This document shows positions 13,519 to 22,928 of a stretch of DNA of 24,775 bases, in pieces. The stretch is from positions 1 to 24,775 of the IMG/VR virus record IMGVR_UViG_3300025137_000272; one strand, written 5' to 3'. Numbering within the stretch: position 1 is the first letter of the stretch; the number at the start of each line of letters is the position of its first letter. Source of the DNA: a virus. The translations under genes and the position numbers were made by a program. The notes beneath the pieces are model-generated. The model ran no database searches and was not told where the DNA came from. It saw only the letters and a list, made by a program, of their open reading frames with translations.

Positions 13519-14556
13519 TCACGCCGCCTGATCCATCGTTGCCATAGCGATTTTTGCTTGGGCTTTTTGCTTCGATGAGTTGCAGTAATGATGCACCATT
13601 TTGACTGATGTATGGCCGGTGATAGACATAATGGCTTCGGCCGACAGACCCTGCTCTGCGAGGCGATGTGCGCAGCTGTGACGCAGATCGTGCAGCGTCT
13701 TTTTAACACCAATTTTATCTTTTACTTTGCCCATCAGCACCTGGCATGTAATTACCGGCAGCTGCTCGCCTGGATCTTTTTTGTTCACGATGATGTAATC
13801 TGACCCCGACCGATCGATTTGATTGTCCAGGCGCTTGATGGCATCTTTCAGCCTGTTAGAAAAAGGGATAAAAACCTTTGCGCCAGTTTTGCGTTGCTGG
13901 ACCTCAATGCCATAGCCGGCGATCGGATCGTCGTAACACTGCGACCATTTCATCGCCAGGGCATCATTAAGGCGCTGGCCGGTGTTAAGCAGCAATTCCA
14001 GGATCAACGATGCGCGCGGATCTGCATGATCGTGAAACGCAGCGATTTCTTCGTCGGTCCACGGCTCGCGCTCTTCTGCGTTTTTTTCCAGACTTGCTAC
14101 GCCCTTTGCAGGGTTGAATGAAATCCAATCTAGATCGATTGCATATTCCAGAAGAATTTTCATCATAGTTAAAGTCGCGTTGGCAGTAACCGGCTGATCT
14201 TTTCGCGCATCGCGCATCTCAATGATAACTTTGCGTTTCATTTTTTTAACCTGGACGGTTTCGCAGCGATCGATGATCCACTTAATTTTTGAGCGATATC
14301 CGGCGGCGGTAGACCCTGCCACTTTTTTAAATTTATCGCTCGCAAAATATTTGAGAGAAAGCTCGCCCATTGTTCTGCTCGACTTGCCGACAACTTCGCC
14401 TTTAAGGCACTCAGTATATTTAGCGTAAAACTCATGCGACGATGGGTCGGTTGGCAGCTTTACCAGATTGCCATCCTTATTAAAGTAAAGATAAATCTTT
14501 TTCTTAACGTAAACATATGGCGGTAAAACGTGGCCTTGAAATTTGCGAGCTTTCAT
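13519..14556 (-). CDS. int: Tyrosine site-specific recombinase (phage integrase)
   Basis: 345 residues. All catalytic residues of tyrosine recombinases can be seen: R195 (LLNTGQRLNDAL), K223 (QQRKTGAK), H289 and R292 (TLHDLRHSCAHRLA), H315 (ITGHTSVKM) and the nucleophile Y324 (VHHYCN). The N-terminal 60 residues with two basic beta stretches (YVYVKKKIYLYFNKDGNLVK) would be the arm-binding domain, and 60-155 the core-binding domain. It integrates and excises the phage genome. A strong ribosome binding site (GGGAGGAAAG) precedes the ATG at 14554-14556. It is divergent from the repressor gene and shares its control region. No excisionase was identified with certainty; one of the small helix-turn-helix genes may serve. 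Confidence 0.96.
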   Translation of the reverse strand: MKARKFQGHVLPPYVYVKKKIYLYFNKDGNLVKLPTDPSSHEFYAKYTECLKGEVVGKSSRTMGELSLKYFASDKFKKVAGSTAAGYRSKIKWIIDRCETVQVKKMKRKVIIEMRDARKDQPVTANATLTMMKILLEYAIDLDWISFNPAKGVASLEKNAEEREPWTDEEIAAFHDHADPRASLILELLLNTGQRLNDALAMKWSQCYDDPIAGYGIEVQQRKTGAKVFIPFSNRLKDAIKRLDNQIDRSGSDYIIVNKKDPGEQLPVITCQVLMGKVKDKIGVKKTLHDLRHSCAHRLAEQGLSAEAIMSITGHTSVKMVHHYCNSSKQKAQAKIAMATMDQAA

Positions 14557-14838: not shown

Positions 14839-15390
14839 GTGGACGTTAAGAAAGAGCGCGAAAAAAGAGGTATGACCCAGGCGCAGTTAGCTGAGCTAAC
14901 CGGTATATCACCGACTGTCTTATCTCGCGTCGAAAACTTTGATGTCGTTCCCCAGGCAAAAACGATGTTTAAAATTAAACAAGCGTTTGGCCAAAAAACG
15001 AACAAGCAAGACCCCTACTGCCAGGTCGAAGATTTAGAAACCGGAGAGATTTTTCAGTACGATCGAGGGTTTATGATGGGCTGGAAGAACCTGGCGCGTG
15101 TTGCGTGCAATTCTAGTCGGAATGAGCCCTTTGCTCAAAAAGGTGACAGTTTGTTTTTTGACAAGGAACAAACAGACCCTCGCATCGAGGGTTACTATTT
15201 ATTCCGCTTTGAAAAAGATTGGGCAATGTTTTACAGCCATCCAGACATTCAAGCTGGCGATCGGGTTTGGCTTTCTTGTTTAAACCCAACAATCGATAAC
15301 ATGGGATGGTTCGAAGCCGACGATCTTGAGGTTGTCGGCGCCCTGGTGCACATCGGTCGTAACGTGCAGCAAAAAAAGAATACGTTTTAG
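14839..15390 (+). CDS. S24-like phage repressor, probably non-cleaving
   Basis: 183 residues starting at GTG (14839-14841) with AGGGGAAAG just upstream. An N-terminal helix-turn-helix of the XRE/CI type covers about 1-50 (KKEREKRGMTQAQLAELTGI then SPTVLSRVENFDVVPQAKTM). The C-terminal 85-175 has the shape of a LexA/CI S24 domain: NEPFAQKGDSLFFD, then EGYYLFRFEKDWAMFYSH, and DLEVVGALVHIGR at the end. Ser92/93 could sit at the nucleophile position by LexA spacing, but the position of the catalytic Lys is occupied by Tyr132 or a neighbour (AMFYSH), so RecA-driven self-cleavage is doubtful. It is divergent from int and flanked by TTGAAAC operators. Its stop overlaps the stop of the ejection gene by 4 bases. 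Confidence 0.88.
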   Translation: MDVKKEREKRGMTQAQLAELTGISPTVLSRVENFDVVPQAKTMFKIKQAFGQKTNKQDPYCQVEDLETGEIFQYDRGFMMGWKNLARVACNSSRNEPFAQKGDSLFFDKEQTDPRIEGYYLFRFEKDWAMFYSHPDIQAGDRVWLSCLNPTIDNMGWFEADDLEVVGALVHIGRNVQQKKNTF

Positions 15391-17090
15391 CGCATCTGTT
15401 GCTGTAGCTCCTGGAGCCCGACCAGGATGCCTGGTACGCTAGCTGTTGGGGCTCTCTCTCCTGGCCGCATAGTGCGCTTAAAATATTCCTGGGCAACATT
15501 GCTCTGCAACGCTTTGTTGCGCGCCAGGGGAACCATAGCCATGCCAGCCATCGCCGTTAATGGATTGATACCTGTTGCCATGCCGGTGAGCGCACCAGCT
15601 GCAACAGGAGCAGCGTAAGGCGCCATTGCCTTTAGTGTGTTTGCCGTACCGCTTGGGTTATCAGCGCGCGTCAAAATCGTGTTACCGGCGCGATACAAAT
15701 CAGAGAAAGTATCACGGCCATAAACATACGACTGTGTGTCTTTGTTTCTGGCAGCGATCGCAAGCGCAGAGGGCGTGATGTTAAACTCAACGTCTTTATT
15801 TTTTTTCGCTGCGTCCTCTAGCACCATCAGATCGCTATAGCCTTTGCGAACATCTCGATACAAAGCGATATCTTCAGTGTTGCGGCCCTTGGCGATCTGC
15901 TTGCCCATTGCGTCCTCAAGCGCAATAATTGCTTTGATCGCTGCTTTTTTTGTGATCCCGTCCTTGGTCGTAAGCTCGCTTAAGTCGCTTCTGATGCGCT
16001 GAAACTCAGATCCTCTTAGCTGACCAGCGCCGGCCAGATCGACCATCTCTTCAGCTAGCTGCTCGATGTATGGAGATTTCTCACTGGTGCTGAGTTTCTT
16101 TTTATAATCCTGAGCGATCTCAAAAATTTCTTCAAACAACTCAGTCGTGATCGGAACAGAGTTGCGCGCAGCTAACTCATCCATCGTGTCGGTCAGCGTT
16201 TTGCGCAGTTTTTCCATTTTTTCTTGGGGCATCATGCCTGGTTCAAACTGAACCCTATCCCGAAACGATGGCGGGATCGCTTGCGTAATTGCAGCATTCG
16301 AAAACTGATCGACTGCACCTTGTCGTTTTGCTTGGCCAGACCGCGTTGCTTCTTCTGCAAAGGCAAGGCTGCGCTGTCCAGTTGCCTGACCAGCTGTTGG
16401 CTCAATGCCAGCGTTTCTCAGCGTGTCTACGGCCTCTAATCGTCTAGGATCGACCTTGCCGCCGGCCAGGGCGTTCTCTGCGACATCTAGCGCCTTCCCG
16501 CCAACCATCAGCCCCGCGATTTGCGCTGGCGTTTCCAGGATTGATCCCTCAAACGCCTCTCTGCCGCCTTCTGACAAAAGTGTTGGTGCAACTACTTGCT
16601 GCAACATTTTCCGCGCGCCGCCACCAGCACCGCCAGATGCAACCAATTCTGATCCGGTTTTTAAGTAACGACCCGCGCGGGTTTGCGGCTGAAAGCTTGG
16701 ATCTGTGCCGGCCAAATATGGTGGCAGCTTTTCACGCACTTGGTTAATTGCAGCTGTCGCCTCTGGAAAACCAAACGCGCGGTTATCCGCATCACGGCTT
16801 CCCATGCCTAGCCGGTCCATTCCCATCTCGACAGTGTTTGTAAACGCACCAGGAAGCCCAATAACTCCAGCTAGGGCGCTATTAATCCCCGAACCTATAG
16901 CCTTAGTCAAATCCTCAAATACGTTTGTGTCAGGCGCGTCTGGATCGTCTATGCCCGTGACCGTAACATCAACACCGGTTTTTTTCATCGCCGCAATATA
17001 TTTGCTAGCAAACTCTTCGTCCGACATCGCCTGGATGCGTTCAGTCTGATATTTTGGGCGCTTGCGTAGCTCGCGTATTGAAATTTCCAT
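15387..17090 (-). CDS. Probable internal virion / DNA ejection protein
   Basis: 567 residues, mostly helical and Ala-rich. Near the N-terminus is a Gly/Ala-rich amphipathic stretch (IGSGINSALAGVIGLPGAFT, about 65-84), then long helices with a central region (280-440) of charged coiled-coil type (TELFEEIFEIAQDYKKKLST). Toward the C-terminus there are two Gly/Ala-rich hydrophobic helices (YAAPVAAGALTGMATG, INPLTAMAGMAMVPLA). Large, low-identity proteins with membrane-active C-termini in the last part of a podovirus tail operon are commonly DNA-ejection proteins, comparable in role to P22 gp16/gp20 or T7 gp15/gp16. The assignment is by character and place, not by a signature motif. Its start overlaps the stop of the upstream gene by one base (TAATG). 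Confidence 0.7.
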   Translation of the reverse strand: MEISIRELRKRPKYQTERIQAMSDEEFASKYIAAMKKTGVDVTVTGIDDPDAPDTNVFEDLTKAIGSGINSALAGVIGLPGAFTNTVEMGMDRLGMGSRDADNRAFGFPEATAAINQVREKLPPYLAGTDPSFQPQTRAGRYLKTGSELVASGGAGGGARKMLQQVVAPTLLSEGGREAFEGSILETPAQIAGLMVGGKALDVAENALAGGKVDPRRLEAVDTLRNAGIEPTAGQATGQRSLAFAEEATRSGQAKRQGAVDQFSNAAITQAIPPSFRDRVQFEPGMMPQEKMEKLRKTLTDTMDELAARNSVPITTELFEEIFEIAQDYKKKLSTSEKSPYIEQLAEEMVDLAGAGQLRGSEFQRIRSDLSELTTKDGITKKAAIKAIIALEDAMGKQIAKGRNTEDIALYRDVRKGYSDLMVLEDAAKKNKDVEFNITPSALAIAARNKDTQSYVYGRDTFSDLYRAGNTILTRADNPSGTANTLKAMAPYAAPVAAGALTGMATGINPLTAMAGMAMVPLARNKALQSNVAQEYFKRTMRPGERAPTASVPGILVGLQELQQQMR

Positions 17091-18178
17091 TATCCTAAAT
17101 CCGGTTCAAAGCTTGGCATTTCTAAGGCTGGTCGGTCACCCCTGGAGATCATTATTTGCAATTCCTCTTCCAGACGTAACACTTGTGATTGTAAGTCTAA
17201 TAAATATTGCTCTAACGCACCTCTGTAGGCTGGTGGATCTAACTGTCTATTGACATTAGACAAAGCTTCGGTGGCTTTTTGCCCTTCAAGTTCTGTAATT
17301 TGACCGCCACCTTTCAATCCAGCGAAAGCTGCTAAAAAGATTTTCCCAGCTAGCTGGTTATGCAAAGTTATAAATTCTTTTGCGGGGTTGTCGGCTCCAA
17401 AGGTTCCTAAACCCCTTGCGCCGTTTACTGTGCCGGTAGCCGCCGCCATGCCTGAGTGGTTGTATAGCTTGGCAATTAATGCCTTCGAGCTATTAAACAT
17501 ATTGGAAACGCCTTGAATGGCGGCGCGCTGGTCTACAATTTGAGTTCCTTCGCCTTTGCCTTCTGCCTTTGCTTTTTCCTTATCTCCAGCTTGCTGATTG
17601 TCAAATGCCTTTTCAGCTGCGATAGCTTGCCCAATTGCAACAGGATCAGTAATTTCAACGCCGTTATTGTAATACTTAGAGGTGGTGTCTTTTAATGTAA
17701 CTTTGGAAAGGCCACGACCAAATTCTTTTACACTTTGCACTGCGCTGCCAGAAGCATCTTTCTGAGCATAAATGCCAAGTATTTGAGCAGCGCTCCCACC
17801 GGCCTTGATGGCAGCTGCCATACGGCATGCGTCTTGCTCGCCGGCTTCACAACGCGCATCCAAAAGCTCAATCGTTCTATTCCGATCGACCTTACCGACA
17901 TTGCTGCGCGCCGCTGCGCTCTGCGCGGTGATAAAGCTTTGGATTAAGCTTGGACCATCTCCACCGGCGCCCAGGGCAGCGACATATGCATCAGCGCCTG
18001 GCTTGCCCTGGAAAAACTCCATTGCCGCGTCACGCCCCTGTTGCTGTTGGCGCAGCGCCTGGCGATTTTGGATTGTCGTTGCTAAGCCAGCATCCGGCCG
18101 CATGCGCAGCTGATTAAAGCCCAGCGCGAGCCGGTCCATGTTTTCTGGCTTTAGTAAGTTGCTTAAAATTCCGCTCAT
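17090..18178 (-). CDS. Probable internal virion protein
   Basis: 362 residues, helical and Ala/Gln-rich. The N-terminus has MRPDAGLATTIQNRQALRQQ and a Gln run. Two Cys (DARCEAGEQDACRM) lie around 108-118. The C-terminal region, about 270-340, with KEFITLHNQLAGKIFLAAFA, GLKGGGQITELEGQKATEAL and a final helix, is a pattern I have seen in phage virion proteins that lie with ejection proteins. It is followed by the 567-residue ejection candidate with one base of overlap and preceded by a Gln/Asn-rich virion protein. A role inside the capsid, leaving with the DNA, is likely but inferred. Confidence 0.7.
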   Translation of the reverse strand: MSGILSNLLKPENMDRLALGFNQLRMRPDAGLATTIQNRQALRQQQQGRDAAMEFFQGKPGADAYVAALGAGGDGPSLIQSFITAQSAAARSNVGKVDRNRTIELLDARCEAGEQDACRMAAAIKAGGSAAQILGIYAQKDASGSAVQSVKEFGRGLSKVTLKDTTSKYYNNGVEITDPVAIGQAIAAEKAFDNQQAGDKEKAKAEGKGEGTQIVDQRAAIQGVSNMFNSSKALIAKLYNHSGMAAATGTVNGARGLGTFGADNPAKEFITLHNQLAGKIFLAAFAGLKGGGQITELEGQKATEALSNVNRQLDPPAYRGALEQYLLDLQSQVLRLEEELQIMISRGDRPALEMPSFEPDLG

Positions 18179-18928
18179 CTATCTGCCTCTACCCATGCCG
18201 CCAATCGTTGCTCCCGCCGTCAGATAATCAAAAATCCCGGGATTGTATGTGCTAGACCCAGTGGTCGATCCTGTGGTCGTGCCACTTGTCGAGCTTGTCA
18301 TTGGCGCGGCGCCGACAGCTGCAAGAGGCAGCTGAAGCATGTTTGCGCCATATCCGGTGATGCCGCCATATTGCTGATTTGCAGCATTGATTAATTGCTG
18401 GATGAGATTTTGCTGTTGATTACCGACATTCGCCAGATTGTTGTTAAGGGTCTGATCATAATTAAACCCTTGCTGGCTGAGCCCGCCCAGCTGATTGGCT
18501 GCATTTAAAACAGCATTTTGCTGGTTAAACTGATTGCCAATATCGTACTGCGCCATGTTCTGCGCATTTTGAAACCCAGCCATATTTTGCTGCGCGATCA
18601 TTTGGTTTGCCTGGCGCTGAAATTCTGCGTTTGTCTGAGCCTCTGCCACGCCCTGCCTGGAGCCACCAAACGCGCCGGCGTTATCCGCTTGCGCGCCGAC
18701 ATTATTAAGAGCCATTTGATTAGCGCGGTTCATCGACGCCAGGTTATTGTCGATCACCTGTTGCTGATATGGATTTTGATATTGCGTCAAATCCGCGCCA
18801 GCGATCGAGCCAGGCTGAAAATTCATGGCGTTATTGGTAGCGTTTACCGCCGAATTGTAAGTATTTGCGGCGGTTGTTCCAACAGCCTGACCAGGCTGAA
18901 CCATTGCTGGATTTGCTGAGTTGCTCAT
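18179..18928 (-). CDS. Asn/Gln-rich virion protein (ejection-protein candidate)
   Basis: 249 residues, of which roughly a third are Asn or Gln, with Ala and Gly. Examples are DLTQYQNPYQQQVIDNNLAS and AFGGSRQGVAEAQTNAEFQR. The C-terminal 50 residues carry a Ser/Thr/Gly run (TSSTSGTTTGSTTGSSTY) then NPGIFDYLTAGATIGGMGRG. The Asn/Gln-rich helix plus AFGGSRQ motif is a type I know from podovirus proteins lying beside DNA-injection proteins, similar in placing to P22 gp7. Its ATG overlaps the end of the 165-residue gene by 4 bases; in some related phages these two appear to be one protein, so this pair may be a split form. Low complexity makes homology calls weak. Confidence 0.72.
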   Translation of the reverse strand: MSNSANPAMVQPGQAVGTTAANTYNSAVNATNNAMNFQPGSIAGADLTQYQNPYQQQVIDNNLASMNRANQMALNNVGAQADNAGAFGGSRQGVAEAQTNAEFQRQANQMIAQQNMAGFQNAQNMAQYDIGNQFNQQNAVLNAANQLGGLSQQGFNYDQTLNNNLANVGNQQQNLIQQLINAANQQYGGITGYGANMLQLPLAAVGAAPMTSSTSGTTTGSTTGSSTYNPGIFDYLTAGATIGGMGRGR

Positions 18929-19422: not shown

Positions 19423-19788
19423 CTAAAAATCCAATCCTACTGTGCTCTGTATTTCTTTCCAGCCGTATTGCTTAAACGCGCGAACCCATCCGCGCCGGCC
19501 ATTGATCGAGGCGCCATTGCACCCGCTGTCCTTTGCCCACTTAATTATGTCCTGGTGCATGTCGGCCAGTTCGTCCAATTCACCGGCGCCCAAAAACACA
19601 TTAAGGATCTTTCGTTTTGGATATACCACGACTTCTGTAACCAGGCACCCTTTGGCGCGAGGCCAAAGCTGCATATGCCCAGAATAAACCCCATCGACGA
19701 TATCCCAGAAATCGTGCGTGCCTTCGCCCTTGGCCAAAGCAGCCTCGATCCAATCTTTGCAGCGTCCTAATTCAACGTGTTTTACCAT
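19423..19788 (-). CDS. Small protein, possibly GNAT-like, in the tail operon
   Basis: 121 residues. The layout is helix (CKDWIEAALAKGEGTHDFWD), strands (GHMQLWPRAKGCLVTEVVVY), a further strand and turn (KRKILNVFLGAGELDELADM), then a helix and a final strand (WVRAFKQYGWKEI). That arrangement, with VVVYPKRKILNVFLGAG in place of the acetyl-CoA loop and a C-terminal RRGWVRAFKQYGW, resembles truncated GNAT-like proteins in podovirus tail operons. The canonical Q/RxxGxG/A loop is not intact, so catalysis is doubtful and a structural role is possible. It overlaps the previous gene by 7 bases. Confidence 0.6.
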   Translation of the reverse strand: MVKHVELGRCKDWIEAALAKGEGTHDFWDIVDGVYSGHMQLWPRAKGCLVTEVVVYPKRKILNVFLGAGELDELADMHQDIIKWAKDSGCNGASINGRRGWVRAFKQYGWKEIQSTVGLDF

Positions 19789-20132
19789 GTGCTGAGCCCC
19801 ACCCGCTTCCAGATCGCAGCAGATCCATCGTGGTTACCGGTGCAGACATAAATGTAATTATTATCCCAGCTAACCATGCCAGCGACATCACCGGCCGATC
19901 CGGTGTTGGCGTTTGGTACGGCCTGTTTAGTCGCTACCTGGCGAAACGCATTATCAAGACTGACAACGACATATTTATTGCCGGCATCCCACAATATTAC
20001 GCCGTCCTCAGACGGGTTGTCGCTGGCCGTTTTAAAGCCCAGCTTTGCCAGGTTCGATTGTAAGAATGAGGTTAGCTGTAAGCCCCACTGAGTGAGGTCA
20101 AAGCCGATTGGTGGTAGGATGGGTGATGGCAT
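19782..20132 (-). CDS. Small tail-associated protein
   Basis: 116 residues. The start MPSPILPPIGFDLTQWGLQL then TSFLQSNLAKLGFKTAS is helical. The C-terminal half has VILWDAGNKYVVVSLDNAFR and VSWDNNYIYVCTGNHDGSAA, ending IWKRVGLSTW. The closing motif, YIYVCTG followed by WKRV(A/G)LSTW, I have seen at the ends of phage tail or fibre-associated proteins, where it forms a small beta domain. It is adjacent to the gp10-like gene, with one base of overlap (stop of that gene inside TGATG or similar). Confidence 0.7.
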   Translation of the reverse strand: MPSPILPPIGFDLTQWGLQLTSFLQSNLAKLGFKTASDNPSEDGVILWDAGNKYVVVSLDNAFRQVATKQAVPNANTGSAGDVAGMVSWDNNYIYVCTGNHDGSAAIWKRVGLSTW

Positions 20133-21949
20133 TATCTTCGCCCCCCTGGCACCATATCCAGGCGCATATTGCCAACCCTAAAATCAGCCAAGCGCGCGCC
20201 CTCAACGCGCATGCGCAGCTGCCGGCCGGTAAATCGCACCGGCGTAGGATTAGACGTTGTAAATGGGCCGTGGCTCGTTTCTGCGTCATTGGGATAAAAA
20301 CGCGTCTTAAAAGTCAGATTTACATCGCCCTGGGTTAGCTCGTCTGGAATGACCTTCGTCACCTTTGCGACTTGCTCCCCAGCGCCAATGCTGATTGGAC
20401 CACTTTCAGCAAAAATAGATGAGCTATCTACGTTTAAACCAACCTCATGCTCAAAAATACTGACAGGCCCACCAACAGCAATTGTGTTGCCCATAGCATT
20501 GCCATGCGCAGTGCAATAATATTTCAAGCTATCTGGCGCATCAGCTGCAACAACGATAGTTACTTTTGCTCCAGCTTGCCCAGCTGTTCCTGTTGTGGTT
20601 ACACCAGTTGTATAAGATGCATCTGCGCTTGTCCTAAACGCAAAGGGGTGCCCAGAATTTGATGCGTCCGAAAGATCGAATACATATGTATTCCCCCGCG
20701 CAAAGCTTAAAGTCGGAGCAGATCCAGAAATATTCTGTATTGCGTATTTATTTCCACCATCGCTCACAACCGTAACATTATAATTTACAGTTTGTGCATA
20801 TTCTCCAGAGAGAAATGGATAACGAAAAACGCCGCGCTGAACGCCGCTGGTCCTCGATAGATTTCCTATCAGCCAATGGCCTTCTTTGTAATCCAACGCG
20901 ACATAACGATCGATTTCGTTTGCACCGCCAGAGCAATAAAACCACCAAACTTCGCCATATTGGCCGTTTGCAAAAGACCAAATTTTTGATTGTTGAGAGG
21001 TGTTGATATCACCAAAAACATAATCGTGAACATCGCAGGGGATCTCTTGGACGCGGTTTCCGTCAAAGCGGAAGAAACCTTTCTGGGCCATCCAGAATAC
21101 ACCCTCATCGACATCGCTCGCAGCCTTGCGTGAAATAGCGCCGCACGATGTTCCAACGCGCTGAAAGCCATAAACATAGGGTGGACCCAGGTAGCGCGCC
21201 GTATGGGCCGATGTGTCGGTTAAGATAAGCGTCTGGCCGCGCGTTCTTATGCCCTGCATGATTTGGCCGGCATCAGCTAATTCAATATCACCGGCTTCAT
21301 TGGTTGCTGCCGCTGTCCAGACTGTATTTGCCTCACGATCGCACCAGCTGATTTTTCTTGGGTTTCCCCCAGATCCAAGGGCAAAAATAAATCGTTCTTC
21401 TGTAACTAACAGACCCAGATTATTAATCGGAGCGTTGGATATTGGCGCCGCGTCTGCACTCGATCCCAACTGCCACTCCAGCAAGCGGCCATCTTCTTTA
21501 TTACAAGCCACCAAAAATTGACCAAAATTATCGAGCGACCATTGAGTGGCTTCTTGAGGCACTGCATTAGCATTTTGTTGAATTGGAGTGCCATAATAGC
21601 CACTTCCATAAAAACCAAAACCGTAGCCAGTTTCAACAAGCGCGCTTTCTCGACCGGTCACTAAATCAGAAGGCGTAATGTCAAATAATGTTCCGTTGCC
21701 CGTCATCGCAATTAGCTCATTATATGAGCCAGCGGCAACGTATGCAGTTTGATTGTTGGCTTCCCAAGCGTGCATTCCGCGCACGGGATTAGTACAGAAC
21801 GATGCCTTGCGTTCTTGCCAGCCGCCGATCGGGCGTAAGCTGTTATCGCGCCACCTAACCAAGCTGCCATCGCGCCAGCGCCCAGACTGCTCTAGGTCAG
21901 TGCCGTTGCGGTAAAATCCGGCGGGTATATCAAGGGGAATTAGTGTCAT
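20132..21949 (-). CDS. Tail hub / packaged-DNA stabilization protein (P22 gp10-like) with cupredoxin-like insert
   Basis: 605 residues. The N-terminus MTLIPLDIPAGFYRNGTDLE followed by GRWRDGSLVRWRDNSLRPIG is the entry of a beta-propeller-type virion protein found in many podophages and similar to the P22 gp10 'stabilization' family. Repeating blades run to about 385 (for example SLDNFGQFLVACNKEDGRLL, WSFANGQYGEVWWFYCSGGA). At about 388-495 a separate domain is inserted: TYVFDLSDASNSGHPFAFRT, then KYYCTAHGNAMG. H434, C479, H482 and M486 match the ligands of a type 1 copper (plastocyanin) site. The propeller part resumes with IFEHEVGLN (498-506) and ends in a jelly-roll-like region. It would close the portal end after packaging. 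The family call is by memory; the insert is clear. Confidence 0.8.
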   Translation of the reverse strand: MTLIPLDIPAGFYRNGTDLEQSGRWRDGSLVRWRDNSLRPIGGWQERKASFCTNPVRGMHAWEANNQTAYVAAGSYNELIAMTGNGTLFDITPSDLVTGRESALVETGYGFGFYGSGYYGTPIQQNANAVPQEATQWSLDNFGQFLVACNKEDGRLLEWQLGSSADAAPISNAPINNLGLLVTEERFIFALGSGGNPRKISWCDREANTVWTAAATNEAGDIELADAGQIMQGIRTRGQTLILTDTSAHTARYLGPPYVYGFQRVGTSCGAISRKAASDVDEGVFWMAQKGFFRFDGNRVQEIPCDVHDYVFGDINTSQQSKIWSFANGQYGEVWWFYCSGGANEIDRYVALDYKEGHWLIGNLSRTSGVQRGVFRYPFLSGEYAQTVNYNVTVVSDGGNKYAIQNISGSAPTLSFARGNTYVFDLSDASNSGHPFAFRTSADASYTTGVTTTGTAGQAGAKVTIVVAADAPDSLKYYCTAHGNAMGNTIAVGGPVSIFEHEVGLNVDSSSIFAESGPISIGAGEQVAKVTKVIPDELTQGDVNLTFKTRFYPNDAETSHGPFTTSNPTPVRFTGRQLRMRVEGARLADFRVGNMRLDMVPGGRR

Positions 21950-21959
21950 ACTGCCTCCC

Positions 21960-22928
21960 TTAACGTACTACCGTAATCATAACAGTATGGGGGTTGGCAT
22001 AGTTGTTTCCAGATGGATCTGTAACTGTGAACGAAAAAGCAGAGGCAGATCGTGAATACACATCTATACAGGTTCCATCATTTGCTGACGCAGATGTAGT
22101 TACCCCCGCTGCAAATGTAATTGCGTAATTTGCGTCAGGCATCGCTGTGGTGAACGTAGCTGTAAAATTACCTGTTCCAGTTTTGTAAACGGTAGCAATA
22201 TTTCCAGAGCCATTTAATGTAGCATTTGCACTACTAGATCCATTACTAACAAAATTTACCCAAGCGCGAACGCCATAGATAGGAGCGGAGCCTGACACAT
22301 TAAGCTGGCTGTCAATCGCGCCCTTTAATTTAACTGGAGAAATAAGACTTTCTGTTGTGCCTGTTCCAGTTGTCCATGTGGAAGTTGACTGCTCTCCTAA
22401 ATGACCAACAACAGTATTTGTATCGGGAACTTTAGCTTTTGAAGTACCCCCATATTTTAAAAACAACTCATTACTGTCAACTTCAGCTGTCCAGTTCTGA
22501 GTTCCCCCAGAAACCGTAACCCCTGGAGTGGTAACGGTGCCAGTAAAGGTCGGTGAGGCAAGAGGCGCATAAACGCTACTTAATCCGCTGAACTGCGTCT
22601 GAATGTTACTCGTTACGCCATCAACATAATTAAGCTCGGCGGTCGAGGTCGTGCAGCCAGTAAGTTTGTTTAACTCGGCGGCTGACGCCGTGAGAGCGCC
22701 CAGGACGTTTAATTGGGCAGTCGTAACACTGGCTCCATCGAGCTTGTTAAGCTCGGCGGCTGACGCGGTGACAGCCGTGCCATTTATTTTCAGCGCGCTT
22801 AGATTTGGTTCGACCGTGCCTGTCGTACCGTTGACCGCATCAACGATGGTGTCGAGCGCAGTATTGGTTAGAGAGCCCCAAGAATTTTCGTTGCCGCCGA
22901 CAGTCGCTTTTGTGATGCTAATTGCCAT
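21960..22928 (-). CDS. Tail fibre-like protein with ELNxL repeats
   Basis: 322 residues. The N-terminus (MAISITKATVGGNENSWGSL) is a typical attachment region, followed by TASAAELNKLDGASVTTAQL and three further ELN(K/Y)(L/V) or QLNVL units (about 53-105). These repeats are common in tail fibres of cyanophages and other marine phages. SVYAPLASPTFTGTVTTPGV (118-137) is a further phage-fibre hallmark (ASPTFTGT). The C-terminal 120 residues form a beta-rich knob: NFTATFTTAMPDANYAITFA, ending NPHTVMITVVR. The DNA copies of the ELNKL unit are nearly identical. GAGG eight bases before the ATG is a clear ribosome binding site. It likely carries host contact or adapts another fibre. Confidence 0.85.
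   Translation of the reverse strand: MAISITKATVGGNENSWGSLTNTALDTIVDAVNGTTGTVEPNLSALKINGTAVTASAAELNKLDGASVTTAQLNVLGALTASAAELNKLTGCTTSTAELNYVDGVTSNIQTQFSGLSSVYAPLASPTFTGTVTTPGVTVSGGTQNWTAEVDSNELFLKYGGTSKAKVPDTNTVVGHLGEQSTSTWTTGTGTTESLISPVKLKGAIDSQLNVSGSAPIYGVRAWVNFVSNGSSSANATLNGSGNIATVYKTGTGNFTATFTTAMPDANYAITFAAGVTTSASANDGTCIDVYSRSASAFSFTVTDPSGNNYANPHTVMITVVR

Follow-up and report, generated by a model that had tools for sequence, protein, structure and literature searches.

A predicted cupredoxin-fold domain with a conserved type 1 copper ligand pattern is an exchangeable insert in phage tail proteins

Introduction

To our knowledge, type 1 copper sites are known from cells, as electron carriers and parts of oxidases, and not as building blocks of virions. 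The locus described here raises the question of whether such a site has been built into a phage tail and, if so, what it might do there. The stretch of DNA that we analyzed (the window) comprises the 24,775 bases of an IMG/VR virus record, in which the minus strand at 20132-21949 encodes a 605-residue protein. A preliminary description had read this protein as P22 gp10-like and proposed that a cupredoxin-like domain interrupts its propeller; on re-reading the sequence, the 605-codon ORF, the segment at residues 388-495 and the four residues quoted as copper ligands (H434, C479, H482 and M486) all sit where they had been placed. If tails hold copper, marine phages would constitute a copper pool and carrier in seawater, and infection could respond to copper supply; and a domain so far concealed within PHROG families that carry the labels tail fibre, baseplate connector or unknown can now be assigned a fold and a probable chemistry.

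The host protein is a tail nozzle

The 605-residue protein is a tail nozzle (hub) of the P22 gp10 / T7 gp12 fold class. In a PHROG search, phrog_3287 (virion structural protein) matches residues 7-377 at 5.5e-84; a Pfam search with the whole protein returned no model at E < 1. A profile of 33 homologues searched against PDB sequences retrieves the solved nozzles of Pa223 (9nwi_Y, 6.9e-22) and VP1 gp16 (8zkm, 1.2e-14; 8zkk, 2.3e-14). The full-length model, computed from alignment A3, is of moderate quality (pLDDT 74.8, pTM 0.71); an alignment that mixed full proteins with loose domains (A2) was dropped because it misplaced the ends of fragments. The first 24 Foldseek matches to the model are phage tail structures, and the tail matches include Pa223, VP1, SU10, the cyanophages A4 and Pan3, GP4, T7, P22 gp10, Sf6 and Pam1. 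The protein thus combines the propeller-plus-platform fold of this class with sequence homology to solved nozzles. The label "P22 gp10-like" holds at the level of the fold, at which P22 gp10 itself is matched with E about 1e-8, but the closer relatives are the nozzles of Pa223, VP1 gp16 and SU10.

The N-terminal region and beta-propeller occupy residues 1-387 (20789-21949, minus strand), as delimited by the phrog_3287 match and the strands of the model. The C-terminal region, residues 496-605 (20135-20464, minus strand), has about eight strands in the model and is probably the platform domain facing the adaptor, judging from those strands and from the domain order of T7 gp12 (PMC6702177). By analogy with its relatives, the nozzle would be hexameric and lie below the adaptor ring. 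The nozzles of P22 (gp10), T7 (gp12), SU10, Pa223 and VP1 share its propeller-plus-C-terminal-region fold, and like it they belong to a tail operon that also encodes fibre and ejection proteins. In the window, the upstream gene that adjoins the nozzle gene, at 21960-22928 on the minus strand, encodes a tail fibre (PHROG tail fibre, 2.4e-9), and three further genes of the nozzle operon lie at 15387-18928 on the minus strand (phrog_26400, phrog_2534 and phrog_4287), two of them matching DNA-ejection families. The nearest cultured relative by nozzle, Octadecabacter Antarctic DB virus 2 (58.8% identity), has the identical fibre-nozzle gene order and lacks the insert.

The segment is an optional insert

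Residues 388-495 (20465-20788, minus strand) are set off from the rest of the nozzle by AlphaFold2 prediction, by fold matches and by absence from close relatives. Relatives that are 82-87% identical over the rest of the nozzle read GHNADSDIYEHEVG at the insertion point, where the window nozzle reads GEYAQTVNYNV...GGPVSIFEHEVG; that is, close homologues show HNADS in place of about 115 residues, which bears out the earlier view that the segment is an insert. Its placement within the propeller, which had been thought to resume as IFEHEVG, has to be revised: in the moderate full-length model (pLDDT 74.8) the propeller ends before the insert begins, and about 110 residues that form strands follow the insert, so that model and sequence together suggest that it separates the propeller from the C-terminal region.

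Three near pairs of loci, each with one member that carries the insert and one that does not, have flanking DNA that is 90-97% identical, and the genes on both sides of the nozzle are of the same kinds in the insert-bearing and insert-less groups. Among the relatives compared, the presence of the insert was not found to track an altered neighboring gene, the fibre gene included. A tree built from the remainder of the protein, in which 10 rows carry the insert and 50 lack it, needs six changes of state, at least five of them imposed by well-supported branches; the tree was built by a quick method, and its changes do not distinguish gains from losses. Because near-identical pairs exist with and without it, and because the tree demands at least five changes, the insert is, on this comparison of sequences, an optional cassette, and the nozzle works without it. 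The GC3 of the insert is 0.30 versus 0.46 and 0.50 for its flanks, a weak signal that falls just at the 10th percentile of the window. Purifying selection acts on the domain (dN/dS 0.03-0.17), which usually shows higher conservation than the surrounding nozzle.

The insert is predicted to have a cupredoxin fold

Folded alone by AlphaFold2 with 64 aligned copies, the insert gives a confident model (pLDDT 93.3, pTM 0.86) with nine strand elements, in keeping with a Greek-key beta-sandwich of about eight strands. In a fold comparison of this model, all 50 of the best PDB matches listed are cupredoxins, with probability 0.98-1.00, so that structure prediction and fold search, which had been proposed as the check, both uphold the cupredoxin assignment. 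The best match is rusticyanin (1e30; E 2.8e-4, probability 1.00), and others include copper nitrite reductase, laccases and a Nitrosopumilus multicopper oxidase. TM-scores by query length are 0.44-0.65 for these matches, which makes the insert a distant member of the fold. It resembles rusticyanin- and plastocyanin-type cupredoxins in its predicted beta-sandwich and in the order and topology of a His...Cys-x2-His-x2/3-Met pattern; it differs from them in its identity of about 17%, in its C-x2-H-x3-M or x2-M loops and in forming part of a virion protein, whereas they are secreted electron carriers.

The domain is placed by fold comparison; sequence alone cannot place it. The window domain scores 12.8 bits against Pfam PF00127 (Copper-bind), below the curated cut-off of 21.2, and this family appears at E < 1 in 7 of the 64 copies (best 6.9e-3). 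PF02018 (CBM_4_9) appears in nine of the 64 (best 6.4e-4), a reading that we rejected on the fold comparison. A PDB sequence-profile search with the domain returned antibodies, SUMO and other unrelated chains at E > 0.08 and no true match, and in such a profile search of the PDB the domain matched no solved nozzle. A TAL effector match at 1e-18 in a single-sequence PDB search was set aside as well: it arose because about 14 matches to a repeat protein, each below threshold, had been added together, and none of the repeats is significant by itself.

The four predicted ligand residues are conserved

The predicted first copper ligand, H434 (20648-20650, minus strand, as are the other three codons), is H51 of the model and lies in the loop just before strand 53-57. 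The predicted thiolate ligand, C479 (20513-20515), is C96, at the end of strand 91-96, and the predicted second His ligand, H482 (20504-20506; H99 of the model), and axial ligand, M486 (20492-20494; M103), occupy the C-x2-H-x3-M loop between this strand and the last strand of the model. Plastocyanin holds its ligands at the same strand and loop positions. Order and positions of the four, checked in the model, are thus canonical for a cupredoxin. Homologues keep the four residues: an alignment of 64 copies (43-93% identity) has seven invariant columns, H, G, Y, C, H, M and G, with the ligands making up four of them, and among the viral loci fetched every one of the 135 distinct full copies has the complete set, a count made with a domain profile built from ligand-bearing copies, in which ligand-less copies are under-sampled. 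The type 1 ligand set proposed in the preliminary description therefore stands, both as a match and as a conserved feature.

The ligand loop reads C-x2-H-x3-M in 53 of the 135 viral copies and C-x2-H-x2-M in 82. A single Cys is found in 134 of them, and a disulfide is therefore not the reason for its conservation. In classical cupredoxins Asn or Ser usually follows the first His, a common feature of the family that is not strictly defining; here Pro follows it in 132 of 135 viral copies, and the second sphere is therefore unusual. When viral and bacterial copies are thinned together at 80% identity, 81 of 93 keep all four ligands. Two bacterial copies, one from a SAR86 bin (L346) and one from Prochlorococcus (L363), keep the two His and the Cys and have Gln for the axial Met; Gln is likewise the axial ligand in place of Met in stellacyanins. 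The swapped loops read CQAHANQGG (L346, domain at residues 816-917) and CHFHTGQGA (L363, residues 1511-1627). Ten copies are non-ligand copies: for six of these the match ends at or before the Cys and is uninformative on ligand loss, and the remaining four cover the Cys column usefully and have lost most ligands.

A cellular relative and the spread of the domain

A Prochlorococcus single-cell genome supplies a connection to cellular cupredoxins: L374, a secreted-type protein of 134 residues whose N-terminus is signal-like, scores 33.8 bits against PF00127 (cut-off 21.2). BLASTP aligns it with the window domain over 91 residues at 1e-7 with the four ligands in register, and hhalign against the 64-row domain profile gives 95.8% and 8e-9, again with all four ligands aligned; weaker alignments (46%, 2e-4), also with ligands in register, were obtained for plastocyanin-type members encoded in the same marine genomes. 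On these alignments, the protein bridges the phage domain to PF00127. Besides the ligands, the two have PTxTxxKG / SGTPGT text in common; the Prochlorococcus protein differs in being free-standing, with its signal-like N-terminus, and in lying above the PF00127 cut-off, below which the window domain falls.

That similar segments occur in virion proteins of marine phages had been stated in the preliminary description, and homologue searches bear this out. With one query and one threshold, the window domain matches 86 of 50,697 phage records, all with marine-type names or hosts; named isolates that carry it include S-SSM4, P-TIM68, S-B68, HTVC028P, Baldr and Melnitz, and in BFVD 68 predicted viral structures match the domain at E < 0.001. 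The domain is found in nozzles of another family, phrog_376 (L020, L027 and L029); one of these, L020, has matches among solved structures, the nozzles of Carin 1 and LME-1. Within the domain the DNA of these phrog_376 nozzles and that of the window are 78-82% identical; outside it there is no match, and L020 and L027 bear the domain at different points of the family. It is found also in a phrog_511 protein (L033), in tail fibres (L037, L057 and L066) and in the cyanophage baseplate wedge connector phrog_677. In S-SSM4 (L382), the adjacent genes for a baseplate wedge connector (1056-2234) and a baseplate wedge subunit (2238 onward) have one domain copy each, and in L061 and L062 a single phage protein, about 454 residues long, contains two tandem copies.

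In marine bacterial genomes, some bins of which may include phage contigs, the domain occurs in surface-type proteins, mostly of 2,000-3,500 residues. Giant carriers are found in SAR86 (L335, L337, L347 and L361), in Flavobacteriaceae (L348) and in L332, L342, L343, L351, L362 and L363. Two of the giant proteins have Pfam matches, RTX and cadherin repeats in one from SAR86 and a C-type lectin domain and DUF7507 in the one from Flavobacteriaceae, and from their sequences the giant carriers look like cell-surface proteins. Compared across unrelated nozzles, fibres, baseplate connectors and bacterial surface proteins, these sequences identify the domain as a shuffled module. Full-text searches of the open-access literature for cupredoxin or blue copper together with phage returned no paper on the domain, which may be described elsewhere. 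A ligand-less tail-fibre domain (L170, L178, L181 and L183) that was recruited by iterated profile search was left out as drift; it carries STxxSSSNAATINLRDGN... text, is weakly similar to the cupredoxin profile and may be a ligand-less relative or a chance match.

Position on the tail and proposed role

T7 gp12 has its fibre dock on the outer surface, as the link that leads from the propeller's end into the platform (PMC6702177). The short-fibre dock of SU10 is a loop on the edge of blade 1, at the place from which the chain runs on into the C-terminal platform (PMC9509320). The window nozzle differs from these two in having the cupredoxin insert where they have a jelly-roll or loop dock, and a profile alignment places an extra 30-residue stretch of the Pa223 nozzle at the insertion point. 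By this analogy the domain would be displayed on the outer flank of the nozzle near the fibres, in about six copies per tail; the docking position rests on gene-family analogy because the full-length model is moderate (pLDDT 74.8).

We propose that the insert is a cupredoxin-fold domain with the complete type 1 ligand set of His, Cys, His and Met, that it would most likely fold around one copper ion, and that it is an accessory cassette which marine phages exchange among nozzles, fibres and baseplate proteins that are unrelated to one another. The strict conservation of the ligands indicates that the metal site matters to the domain, the metal probably being copper and serving folding and stiffness. 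A stiff beta-sandwich of this kind would extend the lateral surface of the tail and may help to hold the fibres or to touch the envelope of the host. A contact or stabilizing module is suggested because the domain is optional, apparently outward-facing and exchangeable, and is found also in fibres and surface proteins; contact as such is put forward tentatively. As a whole, this reading of a copper-folded, exchangeable surface cassette on the nozzle flank, with a role in contact or fibre-holding, is one that we consider on balance probable. The more far-reaching version, in which one shared cupredoxin cassette, traded among unrelated tail proteins and also with the giant surface proteins of marine bacteria, loads copper on marine phage tails, where the copper is needed for host recognition or entry, seems to us unlikely.

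Several other explanations have to be weighed against the proposed copper-folded cassette. The one with a substantial minority claim is that the domain is a structural spacer, a rigid decoration with a cupredoxin fold in which the Cys/His/His/Met site is metal-free in the virion or holds another metal such as zinc. Ig-like spacers abound in phage tails and bacterial adhesins, the domain occurs in such repetitive proteins, and degenerate ligand-less bacterial copies at the profile level (L359, L363 and L364) suggest that the fold may stand without the site; yet a spacer should lose its ligands, which persist in every full viral copy down to 43% identity, with a lone Cys in nearly all, and the Met-to-Gln swaps are typical of type 1 copper. 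We give very little credence to the idea that the domain is no cupredoxin at all, being an Ig- or carbohydrate-binding-type sandwich with a coincidental ligand motif: sequence search taken by itself does turn up CBM_4_9 in more copies than Copper-bind, but the uniform cupredoxin matches among the PDB folds listed, the topology of the ligands and the bridging Prochlorococcus protein all argue against it.

The two remaining alternatives assign the copper a more active part. Bound copper might serve as bait for a host outer-membrane receptor for copper or metallophore uptake; in favor of such a Trojan horse are the invariance of the ligands in exposed fibre and nozzle positions, the marine-type names or hosts of all 86 matching phage records and the precedent of iron proposed for marine phages (PMC11705849). 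The iron-binding HxH fibre tips of T4 gp37 and of Alteromonas phage R22Y are indeed alike in presenting an exposed metal site on the tail with a proposed role in marine metal ecology (PMC11705849), but they are trimeric HxH iron sites, and metal, fold and location all differ from those of the cupredoxin domain. Our searches found no receptor, genetic link or host-specific pattern, a type 1 site is largely buried, unlike a metallophore, and the presence of the domain does not follow the neighboring fibre gene, all of which makes this explanation improbable. Still less probable, in our judgment, is a redox device, in which the site would sense the redox state of the envelope or pass electrons and so trigger genome release. 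Type 1 sites are one-electron centers in the relatives matched by fold (rusticyanin, nitrite reductase, laccase), but no partner redox protein was found among the window genes searched, close relatives without the domain keep the nozzle intact, and the baseplate connectors and fibres that also carry it share no trigger role. For the proposed cassette, the nearly identical nozzles with and without the domain are a natural experiment, and cultured phages that bear it (S-SSM4, P-TIM68, HTVC028P, Baldr and Melnitz) make the question testable.

The phage and its other genes

The window phage looks like a temperate, short-tailed phage, going by its gene content, because it has integrase, repressor-like, terminase, primase/polymerase, tail fibre and ejection-type genes. 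The integrase and repressor-like genes are at 13519-14556 on the minus strand and 14839-15390 on the plus strand, and the phage is probably temperate. The tail fibre encoded at 21960-22928 varies strongly among relatives (34-74% identity), the other neighboring genes being better conserved, and is likely to be a host-range part. A small gene of the tail operon lies at 19423-19788 on the minus strand; the annotation of Octadecabacter Antarctic DB virus 2 has an acetyltransferase gene at a similar place.
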